64,000 nt of DNA from Gemmatimonadaceae bacterium (GTDB taxonomy: Bacteria; Gemmatimonadota; Gemmatimonadetes; Gemmatimonadales; Gemmatimonadaceae). The notes under the pieces were generated by a model. It made no database searches and was not told the DNA's origin. It saw nothing but the letters and a program-made list of their open reading frames with translations. A program made the position numbers and the translations under genes. The stretch spans positions 124,001 through 188,000 of the forward strand of contig JADZCT010000020.1 of the NCBI GenBank assembly GCA_020851455.1, written 5' to 3'. Below are positions 27,058 through 32,265 of the stretch, one piece after another; position 1 is the first letter of the stretch; each line of letters starts with the position of its first letter.

Positions 27058-27575
27058 CCGCCAAGCGGCGCGTCAAAGAGGAGTTGCGGCGCTGCATCGT
27101 CGCGTGTGTGGTAGACGCGCAGTGTGTGCATCACCCATAGCTCCGGCTCCCGGTACGACATGAGCGCCCCGAGCGATCCGGGCGTCAGCGTGGCGTAGAA
27201 GTTCAGCGTACAGTGCGGAGTGAACGGCCACCGCGCCCGCTCGCATCGCAGACCGCTGGTTTTCAGTGCCTCGTGCAGAACACGGAGTGGCCCGTGAGGG
27301 TCGAGCGGCAATACCACGATCTCACGTCCGATGAAGCGCGCCGGCGGGCCAAACGTCAGTTCCAGCGGTGGCGTGCGCGCCGCGATCGGCCTGATCGCCC
27401 CTGTCAGCACGTCAACCGGTGTATCCGGGGCTATCGGCCCGGCTCCGGACGACCCAATCAACGTGACGTGTGGCGGAAGTTCACGGGCAAGCTTCGGATC
27501 CCATCGTTCCTGCAGCGCCCTGACGCGCTGCGCCATGAGCCCGTCCAGTTCACTGGTAATGAAGATGCCGTTCAT
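27054..27575 (-). CDS. 2H phosphoesterase, LigT / 2'-5' RNA ligase family
   Basis: A 173-residue cytoplasmic protein with the two HxT motifs that define the 2H superfamily: PPHVTL (H36, T38) and TPHCTL (H121, T123). Family members hydrolyse 2',3'-cyclic phosphates or join RNA 2'-5'; the exact reaction is not predictable here. Start ATG 27575 overlaps the stop of the upstream PAP2 gene in ATGA, so it is the third gene of a three-gene overlap chain. Its stop is convergent with the TlpA gene and shares 4 bp. Confidence 0.82.
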   Translation of the reverse strand: MNGIFITSELDGLMAQRVRALQERWDPKLARELPPHVTLIGSSGAGPIAPDTPVDVLTGAIRPIAARTPPLELTFGPPARFIGREIVVLPLDPHGPLRVLHEALKTSGLRCERARWPFTPHCTLNFYATLTPGSLGALMSYREPELWVMHTLRVYHTRDDAAPQLLFDAPLGG

Positions 27576-28330
27576 GGCTTGTCCGCATGCCAGCGCACTA
27601 CTGCGCGCCCCCCCCAAAAGCCAATTACGCCCCCCATCACCACGTCGCTCGTCCAGTGTCGGTCACGATAAACCCTTGCCGCTCCGGTGAGCGCCGCAGC
27701 CGCGTATAGCATCGCTGGCACCAACCTGGACCGCCCGGGCCGCAGCCGGGCCCACTCGGCGTCCACGGCCGACGCAAACGCGAATGCCGCAGTGGTATGC
27801 CCGGAAGGGAACGACTGGAACTCGCTGCGATCGCCAAAGCCCCGGCCGAGCACAAAATCACGCGGATTGCCGGGCGATTCATCCGGCCGGGCCCGCCCCA
27901 TGGCTCCCTTCAGCGCGCTCGTCACGGCACCCGTGGCGATCACGGCTTCGAGCGACCGCAGCCCGACCAGGCGTCGGGTCTCGCTGCCCGGCCAGTATCC
28001 GCTCACCCAGAGCGCAACTCCTGCGGCGAGCACGCCAGGGCTGCCGTACGCGCTCATCCCGTCCATGATCCCGCCAACCACGCGATCACCCTGCAGGGGC
28101 GAAGCTCTCGCTCCATCGGCGATCGCCCGGTCCCAGCCGACCAGCACCGCACTTGCCGCCACGCCGATTCCAACGACAGCCACATCTGACCTGGCAAGGA
28201 CAGGACCGTGCGCGCGCGGCACATCCTGCGCACGAAGAACCAGCGGAACGCCAGCGCAGGCTGCGAGCGCCGGGAGCCAAAGCACACGCCGTCGTGCGAC
28301 TGTGAACCAGTCGAAACCGCGCGTCCTCAT
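27572..28330 (-). CDS. PAP2-family phosphatase (second of a tandem pair)
   Basis: A 252-residue membrane protein of the PAP2/acid phosphatase type. The three catalytic motifs are visible: KGAMGRARP, PSGHTT and ARVYRDRHWTSD. The N-terminus has a membrane-spanning or signal segment (VLWLPALAACAGVPLVL). It probably removes a phosphate from a lipid such as phosphatidic acid or undecaprenyl pyrophosphate at the outer face of the inner membrane. Start ATG 28330 follows GGAGG at 5 nt and overlaps the stop of the first PAP2 gene (ATGA). Confidence 0.85.
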   Translation of the reverse strand: MRTRGFDWFTVARRRVLWLPALAACAGVPLVLRAQDVPRAHGPVLARSDVAVVGIGVAASAVLVGWDRAIADGARASPLQGDRVVGGIMDGMSAYGSPGVLAAGVALWVSGYWPGSETRRLVGLRSLEAVIATGAVTSALKGAMGRARPDESPGNPRDFVLGRGFGDRSEFQSFPSGHTTAAFAFASAVDAEWARLRPGRSRLVPAMLYAAAALTGAARVYRDRHWTSDVVMGGVIGFWGGRAVVRWHADKP

Positions 28331-28992
28331 TCCGGCCTCCTGGACGAACGGCCATCCCCCATCGTCCACGGACCAAGCATCACGCGATCGTACGCCGACT
28401 CGGCACGGCCCCCGTGAATGCGCGCCAGAACGAACGCCGTAACTGCTCCGATAACGACTGCTGCGCAAACGTCAGTGAGCCAATGCTGGTCCGCGAACAT
28501 ACGTCCCCACATAACCCACAACACGCTCCCAAGCAGCGGGGCAACCACGCCGATGCGAAGCCGGAGCGACCAACTGGCAGACGCGCACAACACCCCCACC
28601 ACGAAAGCCGTGGTTGCCGTAGTGTGCCCTGACGGCATCGAGAAGAACCGCGCGTCCGCCCACCCGTGGTTGAACTCCCAGTGCCAGGGCGCATTCCATT
28701 CGACGAATGGCCGCGCGCGTCCCGCAAGTCCTTTGATGATCCCGCTGACGCCGCTTGCGACAGCCAGCGCCTCCGTGCCGCGGAGCCCCGCCCTCGATAC
28801 ACGCCGCCAGCCAACCGCCCGCGCGCCAAGCCACATGGCGGCCGCGAACCAGATCACCCCGGGGCCACCCCACCAGTTTGCCGCCCGGGCCGTTGCCTGG
28901 AGCACGGGAGATGCAAGCGCAGCCGAGTCACGCACGGCGGCGCGCGCGGCCAGATCAGCCCTCCAGATGACGTTCCCTTGCTCCATCACCAT
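28327..28992 (-). CDS. PAP2-family phosphatase (first of a tandem pair)
   Basis: A 221-residue membrane protein with motif 1 KGLAGRARPF, motif 2 PSGHTTAT and motif 3 RMFADQHWLTDV. The arginine of motif 3 is in WGRMFADQH. Helices lie between the motifs. It has the same architecture as the next gene but is shorter and has a distinct N-terminus; they may have arisen by duplication. Start ATG 28992 (MVM); ATG 28986 is equally possible. It is divergent from the GNAT operon. Lipid substrate not identified. Confidence 0.8.
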   Translation of the reverse strand: MVMEQGNVIWRADLAARAAVRDSAALASPVLQATARAANWWGGPGVIWFAAAMWLGARAVGWRRVSRAGLRGTEALAVASGVSGIIKGLAGRARPFVEWNAPWHWEFNHGWADARFFSMPSGHTTATTAFVVGVLCASASWSLRLRIGVVAPLLGSVLWVMWGRMFADQHWLTDVCAAVVIGAVTAFVLARIHGGRAESAYDRVMLGPWTMGDGRSSRRPE

Positions 28993-29136: not shown

Positions 29137-29973
29137 ATGTCACGACAAGACCGAATGCAGAACGTAACATTGGAAAGCGGCATCGTCATTCGCCCGCTCG
29201 AAACACACGCCGAACGGACTGCTGCCGTGCTCTTGCAAGATGAAACGTGGGGCCGTGATTTCAGCGAGAAGATCCCCGCCATCATGATGCTGGTGGCGGA
29301 GAAGACCGGCGGTGTCGCGGCCGGAGCGTTCGGCCGCGACGGCGCGCTCCTGGGCCTCGTTTTCGGCATCACGGGTGTCCGCGACGGCGACCTCATCCAC
29401 TGGTCCGACCTCCTTGCCGTTCACCCGGCAGCCCGCGGCCAGCACCTTGGCGAGGCGCTCAAGCGTTACCAGCGCGAGCGGTGCCGTGACGTTGGCGTGC
29501 AGCGGATGCACTGGACCTACGACCCGTTCGTCGCGCTGAATGCCCACCTCAACCTGAACGTGCTGGGCGCGCGCGTGGTGGAGTTCGTGCCCGACATGTA
29601 CGGCACCGAGACCCGCAGCCGGCTGCACGGCAGTCTCGGTACCGACCGGTTCGTCGTTGCCTGGCCAGTGCAGGCCGCGCCAGTCCCCCTCCCTGCCGAC
29701 CAGGCGCGCCTTGTCGGCGCGCCTGTCGTGGGCGGCTCGCTCGCCGACTGCCCCAGCGATATGCTCCTACCCCAGGCCCCAGTCGTGACCGTCCGCGTTC
29801 CGCACGATTACAGCACGGTCCTTGCCGGCGACCTGGAAAGAGCCCGCGCGTGGCGTGTATCCGCCCGGCGCGCTTTCCAGCACTACCTGTCATCCGGCTA
29901 TGAAGTGTCGGCATTCGTTCCCGGCGACGGCGCCGACGCGAGCTACGTTCTCTCCCGTTCCCGCACCACGTGA
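29137..29973 (+). CDS. GNAT N-acyltransferase (COG3375-like), probable D-amino-acid N-succinyltransferase
   Basis: A 278-residue GNAT-fold acyltransferase. The acyl-CoA-binding loop is seen as LLAVHPAARGQHLGEALKRYQ (residues about 88-108). The C-terminal half is long and has no second enzyme motif. It lies 4 bp upstream of the NSAR/MenC gene, with an M20 amidohydrolase gene third. In Geobacillus kaustophilus this gene order encodes D-amino-acid N-succinyltransferase, N-succinylamino-acid racemase and desuccinylase. The function is therefore inferred from context. ATG 29137 has a weak CATGTT-6 nt box; ATG 29155 is an alternative. Confidence 0.8.
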   Translation: MSRQDRMQNVTLESGIVIRPLETHAERTAAVLLQDETWGRDFSEKIPAIMMLVAEKTGGVAAGAFGRDGALLGLVFGITGVRDGDLIHWSDLLAVHPAARGQHLGEALKRYQRERCRDVGVQRMHWTYDPFVALNAHLNLNVLGARVVEFVPDMYGTETRSRLHGSLGTDRFVVAWPVQAAPVPLPADQARLVGAPVVGGSLADCPSDMLLPQAPVVTVRVPHDYSTVLAGDLERARAWRVSARRAFQHYLSSGYEVSAFVPGDGADASYVLSRSRTT

Positions 29974-29977
29974 CCAG

Positions 29978-31096
29978 ATGCACATAGACCAGATCATCCT
30001 GCGCGAGATCCCGCTCGCCCTGCGCGAGCCCTTCAGGATCTCGAGCGGCGCGATACACGAACGCAGGATCCTCCTGCTGGAGCTTTACGACCGCAGCGGC
30101 GCCCGTGCGTGGAGCGAGTGCATCGCCGGAGAGGCGCCCAACTACTCGCCGGAAACGATTGACACGGCATGGATCATCGTCGAGCAATACGCCGCCACGC
30201 GCCTCCTCGGCAGGAACGTAGAGCATCCAGGCGCCGTTCACGCGATCCTCGAGCGCGATCTGCGTGGCCACCAGATGGCGAAGGCCGGCCTGGAAATGGG
30301 GTGCTGGGGGTTGGCTGCAACGATCGCCGAAGAACCCCTCGGCCGCTTTATCGGCGGTACGCGCTCCGAAGTGGACGTAGGTATTTCACTCGGTATTCAG
30401 GCGTCACCAGAGGCGCTCGTAGACCGCGCCCGGCGTGCGGTCGAGGACGGCTACCGCAAGGTCAAGATCAAGATCGAACCAGGCCGCGACGTGGAATGGG
30501 TGCGCACCGTTCGCGCTGAACTTGGGCCGAAGCCGCACCTTATGGCCGACGCAAACAATGCCTACACGCTCGACGACGCCGATCACCTCGCTGAGTTCGA
30601 TGACCTCGGCCTCATCATGATCGAACAGCCGCTGGCGTGGGACGACCTCGTCCGGCATGCCGAGTTGCAGCGCCGCATCCGCACTCCGATCTGCCTCGAC
30701 GAGTCAATTACGTCGCTCGAACGGGCGCAGGACATGGTGACACTGGGAAGCGGGCGTATCGTGAACATCAAGCCCGGACGCGTGGGCGGGTTCGCGAGCT
30801 CGATCGCCATTCACGACTACTGCCAGCAGGCGGGGGTTCCGGTGTGGTGCGGCGGAATGTTCGAGAGCGGCGTCGGCAGGGCATACAACGTAGCCCTTGC
30901 CTCACTCCCCAACTTCACCATCCCAGGCGATATCAGCCCGAGCGCACGCTACTGGAAGGCCGATGTGGTGCACCCGGAATGGACGATGCATGACGGACGC
31001 ATTCGCGTGCCGCTCGACACCCCCGGCATCGGGGTTGCCGTTGACGAAGACCGCATCATCAACTCCGCCGTTCGCACCGCCTTGCTTCGCGCATGA
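29978..31096 (+). CDS. N-succinylamino-acid racemase / o-succinylbenzoate synthase family
   Basis: Enolase-superfamily enzyme of 372 residues, muconate-lactonising subgroup. The capping domain is at 1-125. The barrel carries the acid/base lysine in KVKIKI (K163/K165), metal ligands D191 (MADANNAY), E216 (MIEQPL) and D241 (CLDES), and the opposing lysine K265 (NIKPGRVGG). This is the set of NSAR/OSBS enzymes. With the GNAT gene before it and an M20 gene after it (4-bp overlap), racemisation of N-succinyl amino acids is the best call. Menaquinone synthesis (MenC) remains possible because no other men gene is in view and NSARs are often bifunctional. Confidence 0.88.
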   Translation: MHIDQIILREIPLALREPFRISSGAIHERRILLLELYDRSGARAWSECIAGEAPNYSPETIDTAWIIVEQYAATRLLGRNVEHPGAVHAILERDLRGHQMAKAGLEMGCWGLAATIAEEPLGRFIGGTRSEVDVGISLGIQASPEALVDRARRAVEDGYRKVKIKIEPGRDVEWVRTVRAELGPKPHLMADANNAYTLDDADHLAEFDDLGLIMIEQPLAWDDLVRHAELQRRIRTPICLDESITSLERAQDMVTLGSGRIVNIKPGRVGGFASSIAIHDYCQQAGVPVWCGGMFESGVGRAYNVALASLPNFTIPGDISPSARYWKADVVHPEWTMHDGRIRVPLDTPGIGVAVDEDRIINSAVRTALLRA

Positions 31097-32265
31097 CAGC
31101 CGCCCTCCCCTTCACTCCCGCTGACCGGGACTTCCTGATCGCCCTCCGCCGCGACCTGCATCAGCACCCGGAGCTGGCGTGGAAGGACGAGCGCACGGCC
31201 GGTCGCCTCGAGAAGGCGCTGCGTGAGTGTGGAGCGCGCGACATCAGGCGCATCTGCGCCACGGGGGTCGTGGCGCGGATTCCGGGTACCGACAGCGGCG
31301 CCACGGTTGCAGTACGGGGTGACATTGACGCGCTTCCCATCCAGGAGGCAACCGGACTTGCGTTCACGTCTGAACACGCCGGGGTCATGCACGCCTGCGG
31401 CCACGACGTGCACGCATCGTGGGCTGTCGGCGCTGCGCTCCTGCTTGCGCGCCAGCCCGCCAGGGGCGACACCGTCATCTTGCTACAGCCGGCCGAAGAG
31501 GTTGGCGAAGGCGCGCGCGCGATGATCGAGGCTGGCGCCGTAGACGGCGTTCGCGCCGTCTTCGGCGCTCATGTGGACCGGAGGTTCCCGGTGGGAGAGG
31601 TGGTCGCCCAAGCCGGGCCCCTTGCTGCCAGCACCGATACGTTCAACATTCTTGTCCGCGGCAGGGGTGCGCATGGCGCGCGCCCGCACATGGCGCTCGA
31701 CCCGGTGGTTGGCGCCGCCTCCATCGTCACCGCTATCCAAACCATTGTCTCACGACGCCTAGACCCGGGATCTCCGGGCGTCATCAGCGTCGGCATCATA
31801 CAGGGCGGCACCGCGCCGAACATCATCCCCGAAGAAGTCGAACTGGCCGGAACCATCCGGGCCACGGGTCAAGCCGCGCGCTCACTCCTCACCACCGAAC
31901 TCTCGCGGCTCGCAAGCGCGGTGGCCGCCGCGCACGGACTGACGGCCACGGTGAGCATAAGGGAGGGCACGCCGCCGCTCGTAAACCCGCCCGAGTGCGC
32001 CGCGTGGGCATCCAGCGCAGTGCAAACATTGCTTGGCCCGGCGGCTCTGGTGCCGCTGGGGGTCGTCAACATGGGCGGCGAAGACTTTGCGTGTTACCTG
32101 GAGCAGGTGCCCGGCTGCTTCATGCGGATCGGGGCACGCGAGCCAGACGGTGATACGGTGGACGCCCACACGCCAAGGTTCGCGCCAGCCGAATGTGCCA
32201 TCTTTGTGGGCGCGGCCGTCCTCGCCCAGGCCGCACGCAATGCGTCAAGCGCGCTTGCGGACTGA
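31093..32265 (+). CDS. M20 amidohydrolase, probable N-succinyl-L-amino-acid desuccinylase
   Basis: A 390-residue cytoplasmic M20D-type metallohydrolase. Motifs seen: DLHQHPELAWKD, RGDIDALPIQE, HACGHDVHA (paired metal ligands), QPAEEVGEGA (catalytic Glu pair), and MGGEDFACY with the last His/Glu region. It overlaps the racemase gene by ATGA. In the known NSAR operons the third enzyme removes succinate only from the L-isomer, which pulls the racemase in one direction. General hippurate hydrolase or IAA-amino acid hydrolase activity would be the alternative if the operon works differently. Confidence 0.85.
   Translation: MTAALPFTPADRDFLIALRRDLHQHPELAWKDERTAGRLEKALRECGARDIRRICATGVVARIPGTDSGATVAVRGDIDALPIQEATGLAFTSEHAGVMHACGHDVHASWAVGAALLLARQPARGDTVILLQPAEEVGEGARAMIEAGAVDGVRAVFGAHVDRRFPVGEVVAQAGPLAASTDTFNILVRGRGAHGARPHMALDPVVGAASIVTAIQTIVSRRLDPGSPGVISVGIIQGGTAPNIIPEEVELAGTIRATGQAARSLLTTELSRLASAVAAAHGLTATVSIREGTPPLVNPPECAAWASSAVQTLLGPAALVPLGVVNMGGEDFACYLEQVPGCFMRIGAREPDGDTVDAHTPRFAPAECAIFVGAAVLAQAARNASSALAD

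Follow-up and report, generated by a model that had tools for sequence, protein, structure and literature searches.

An operon for a GNAT acyltransferase, an NSAR-type racemase and an M20 amidohydrolase in a Gemmatimonadota bacterium, and its probable role in converting D- to L-amino acids

The closest described counterpart of the locus analysed here is the N-succinylamino acid racemase (NSAR) pathway of Geobacillus kaustophilus, in which D-amino acids are reportedly acylated, racemised and then deacylated by an L-specific enzyme. The likeness lies in the three enzyme classes of that pathway, which we take to be the same as those found here, and in a racemase of the NSAR/OSBS (o-succinylbenzoate synthase) family; it is a likeness by description to a system from another phylum. 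The NSAR and L-succinylase of G. kaustophilus have been used as a pair in biocatalysis (PMC7431475). Among solved structures, the best relative of our racemase is the N-acylamino acid racemase of Deinococcus radiodurans (PDB 1r0m/2ggg, E 1e-90). Plasmid MP1 of that bacterium carries a menC-type gene, which may not be the one encoding the crystallised enzyme, with a GNAT gene close by; unlike the present locus, its cluster has no adjacent M20 gene, and the GNAT and the menC-type gene are separated by ABC transporter substrate-binding genes. The full trio is found on plasmids of Priestia megaterium, Lysinibacillus fusiformis and a Streptomyces sp., whose racemases are 44-45% identical to ours and keep all the key residues. 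In these clusters the M20 gene lies upstream, whereas it lies downstream here, and their GNATs are 24-33% identical to ours; the M20 proteins of the Priestia and Lysinibacillus trios are 28-30% identical to ours, and that of the Streptomyces trio gives no significant BLAST match and is distantly related, if at all. Beyond Gemmatimonadota and Acidobacteriota, plasmids from Deinococcus, Sulfitobacter and other bacteria also carry the GNAT-menC pair. One further record, plasmid CP031730.1 of Stenotrophomonas rhizophila GA1 (L121), matches the L. fusiformis plasmid (L118) gene for gene in its order and appears to be a Lysinibacillus plasmid recorded under Stenotrophomonas. In the literature, our searches found no direct account of the complete pathway in Gemmatimonadota.

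The window, a 64,000-nucleotide stretch of DNA, belongs to a Gemmatimonadota genome of 2.96 Mb that is 97% complete. Three adjacent plus-strand genes, 4 bp apart or overlapping, are present in it just as the original prediction had described them: a GNAT N-acyltransferase gene (29155..29973, stop codon at 29971-29973) is followed after a 4 bp gap by the gene for an NSAR/OSBS-type enolase (29978..31096, ATG at 29978, stop codon at 31094-31096), and the M20-family amidohydrolase gene (31093..32265) begins with an ATG at 31093 in a 4 bp ATGA overlap with the preceding stop and itself stops at 32265. All three predicted reading frames stood; only the start of the first required adjustment, since the Met encoded at 29155 (MQNVTL...), where its nearest homologues also start, is likelier than the alternative at 29137.

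The first protein scores 20.6 bits against Pfam, under the 27-bit cut-off; a sequence search for solved GNAT structures returned no match at E 0.001, and a profile search gave a weak one. In its AlphaFold model (pLDDT 92.7), residues 9-176 clearly adopt the GNAT fold and superimpose on the human NatA subunit Naa10 with a Z of 16.4 and an rmsd of 1.8 A over 151 residues. Going by the model, this fold comparison settles the GNAT class of the protein for residues 9-176, the C-terminal third being barely covered. It is 24-35% identical to the GNATs that stand beside menC/NSAR genes in Deinococcus, Sulfitobacter, Priestia, Lysinibacillus and Streptomyces, a distance at which the acyl donor and stereospecificity are not readable from the sequence; as a candidate function we propose succinyl-CoA:D-amino acid N-succinyltransferase.

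The second protein scores 315 bits against the TIGR01928 model, whose cut-off is 201, and the PDB entries most closely related to it are N-acylamino/N-succinylamino acid racemases (2ggg/1sja/2zc8, E 1e-88 to 1e-90). Alignment to the NSAR active site places the catalytic lysines of strands 2 and 6 at K163/K165 and K265 and the Mg ligands at D191/E216/D241, the latter with exactly the numbering that had been given earlier. The eight active-site positions that we checked are invariant in 80/80 relatives. The residue at 268, an arginine in 80/80, is the equivalent of R266 in characterised NSARs as judged by its position after the second catalytic Lys; this second-shell Arg is said to be a determinant of NSAR activity. 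With the family score, catalytic residues and arginine all as in NSARs, the enolase is predicted to racemise N-succinyl amino acids.

The third protein passes both TIGR01891 (335 bits, cut-off 154) and PF01546, and is related to YxeP (PDB 1ysj, E 1e-75) and to plant auxin-conjugate hydrolases. Its metal-site motifs are HACGHD at position 100 (with C102), PAEE at 133, GAH at 158 (with H160) and DAHTP at 357, and we propose it as a putative L-specific N-succinyl-amino acid hydrolase; the M20/TIGR01891 family includes L-specific aminoacylases.

The clustering of GNAT, NSAR and M20 genes by which a Geobacillus-type pathway is recognised is found here, with the use of succinyl-CoA and D-amino acids and L-specific hydrolysis as predictions. 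The operon thus likely encodes a cytoplasmic route for the irreversible conversion of D- to L-amino acids. The GNAT would acylate the amine of a D-amino acid, with succinyl-CoA as the most likely donor of a succinyl group; the racemase would equilibrate the N-succinyl-D- and N-succinyl-L-amino acids via an Mg-stabilised enolate, with K165/K265 as acid/base; and the amidohydrolase would strip succinyl from the L form only, drawing the flow towards the L-amino acid. Homology suggests these reactions as well as the acyl donor, stereospecificity, substrates and physiological source. By analogy, succinyl is the preferred acyl group, and acetyl is also possible since NSARs tolerate a variety of N-acyl groups (PMC7431475). 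Peptidoglycan or biofilm would be a plausible source of the D-amino acids.

The TIGR01928 model carries the name o-succinylbenzoate synthase, the enolase reaches 315 bits against it as a single-copy gene, and its plasmid relatives are (automatically) annotated as menC; one could accordingly take it for the menC of menaquinone synthesis with incidental neighbours. We consider this extremely unlikely. Profile searches of this 97% complete assembly recovered neither MenD (best 47 vs 244 bits) nor MenB (best 117 vs 343 bits) above cut-off, but did recover two members of PF02621 (MqnA/MqnD family), which is diagnostic of menaquinone synthesis by way of futalosine; as far as the assembly goes, an OSBS/menaquinone role is therefore almost excluded. 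Further, the gene adjoins the GNAT and M20 genes, and no men gene turned up among the other neighbours that we examined. On the strength of the genome content we rejected the menC/OSBS assignment, and the name menC is almost certainly wrong for this enolase. The racemase of G. kaustophilus is described as NSAR/OSBS; here, unlike in Geobacillus, OSBS activity is not needed because the Men route is absent. The original prediction had taken its pathway to fail if the racemase were the only OSBS of the genome and inactive as a racemase. It is indeed the sole TIGR01928 gene, yet the pathway reading survives the genomic side of this check since MenD and MenB are lacking and futalosine genes are present.

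The same picture emerges from 54 genomes of the same family with a completeness of 90% or more, tallied manually from tables. None of them (0/54) has a MenD above cut-off, which also speaks against the menC assignment; PF02621 is present in 53/54, and TIGR01928 exceeds its cut-off in 37/54. Both GNAT and NSAR are present in 36 of these genomes and both are absent from 17, with one discordant case; the two genes are neighbours in 34/34 genomes for which a GNAT position was listed, out of the 36 having both. The discordant genome (G016), which counts against the pathway reading, has a TIGR01928 gene but lacks the GNAT, and neither PF02621 nor MenD exceeds its cut-off there. Beyond this family, one genus of another family (g70) has MenD, and wherever both positions are listed its TIGR01928 gene is either more than 100 kb away from the GNAT or on a different contig, whereas other genera of that same family keep both MenD and a GNAT-linked TIGR01928 gene; in these latter genera, the enzyme is possibly bifunctional. 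A preference of Gemmatimonadales for the futalosine pathway has been described in the literature (PMC9426454).

For the conservation of the cluster we used 80 related loci fetched with the NSAR as query, mostly from Gemmatimonadota with several from Acidobacteriota, and clustered their neighbours with a codon-position filter against shadow ORFs in G+C-rich DNA; a scan of the genome contigs with the GNAT alone as query gave no confirmed relatives. The GNAT lies directly upstream of the NSAR in 76/80 loci and the M20 directly downstream in 47/80, with a few of the remaining loci cut by contig ends. All but one of the 47 loci with a downstream M20 (46) have the GNAT upstream, and in the last the contig ends before it. 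Most of the Acidobacteriota loci have no M20, and in some Gemmatimonadota relatives too it is not adjacent, a point against the pathway reading. The Acidobacteriota (Thermoanaerobaculia, Holophagales) with the GNAT-NSAR pair and no adjoining M20 are L072, L080, L082, L088-L091, L093, L096, L097, L101, L103, L104 and L108; the conserved neighbours of the pair in Acidobacteriota resemble, by eye from sequence, acyl-CoA reductase, enoyl-CoA hydratase, SDR and NAD-metabolism genes. The retention of residues and gene order across the 80 relatives excludes a chance origin of the trio. Its occurrence in a G+C-rich diderm, originally singled out as noteworthy, proved unsurprising: the GNAT-NSAR pair is spread widely through Gemmatimonadota and Acidobacteriota and is shared by Deinococcus and Sulfitobacter, so that the trio in a diderm is not special.

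These counts also bear on whether the locus serves a generic salvage of N-acyl-amino acids, in which amino acids bearing an N-acetyl or another N-acyl group, whether D or L, would be recovered by the racemase together with an aminoacylase, the GNAT being a detoxifying or unrelated acyltransferase. NSARs accept many N-acyl groups (PMC7431475), TIGR01891 covers broad-range amidohydrolases and the GNAT may have another specificity, all of which would suit such a role. But no gene accompanies the racemase as constantly as the GNAT, which does so in 76/80 relatives and in other phyla, ahead of the M20; acylation hence looks central rather than incidental, and we regard generic salvage as unlikely. 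The D- to L-conversion, by comparison, draws support from the conserved trio and active site and from the near-exclusion of a menaquinone role, the enzyme activities themselves being predictions.

A second line of context comes from D-aminoacylase-like genes. Such a gene stands divergently beside the GNAT in 18 relatives, the closest one included (L034, L037-L040, L042-L046, L049, L054, L062, L065, L066, L073, L079 and L081); it encodes a protein of ~600 residues related to PDB 1rjp (E 4e-67). Many copies have a lipobox, and the loci sometimes include a GntR-type regulator; given these lipoprotein signals, many of the proteins are probably located outside the cytoplasm. A D-aminoacylase and serine hydrolases are likewise found near the GNAT-menC pair of Deinococcus psychrotolerans. 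The corresponding position in the window is taken by genes that are PAP2-phosphatase-like by motif: two overlapping minus-strand genes (27572-28992), with PSGHT motifs and divergent from the operon, form a pair conserved beside the operon in about 19 relatives. The D-aminoacylase-like homologue of this genome is encoded elsewhere (contig C49, 69520-71067; about 40% identity). The D-aminoacylase-like neighbours point to D-amino-acid metabolism in general, as support independent of the trio. Taken with the reversibility of the racemase, they could also suit a pathway running backwards, in which the GNAT would acylate L-amino acids and a D-specific hydrolase would release D-amino acids. This is very improbable, as the hydrolase of the operon is an M20/TIGR01891 protein related to YxeP and to the hydrolases of the Bacillota trios, from a family with L-specific aminoacylases, and many of the D-aminoacylase-like proteins, bearing lipoprotein signals, are probably extracytoplasmic.

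The trio is very probably a further instance of the known Geobacillus-type D-to-L pathway, widespread in the phylum. This would place a known but little-studied route of D-amino-acid recycling across Gemmatimonadota, with its GNAT-NSAR pair reaching Acidobacteriota, both of them phyla common in soil and water. The most useful by-product is the evidence against the menC label in MenD-less Gemmatimonadota: in futalosine-pathway members of the phylum this family-model label is very probably a misnaming, and one that would falsely imply a second menaquinone route. As the phylum includes both MenD-positive and MenD-negative lineages, it should lend itself to tests of how the NSAR and OSBS activities separate. 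We further suggest, as a tentative but serious possibility, that the "menC" of Gemmatimonadales no longer has any part in menaquinone synthesis and is devoted entirely to D-amino-acid recycling, perhaps forming with a periplasmic D-aminoacylase-like lipoprotein a route for N-acyl-D-amino acids or debris containing D-residues. If true, the futalosine lineages of the phylum would be a natural experiment on what becomes of a promiscuous NSAR/OSBS enzyme once selection for OSBS activity is gone.
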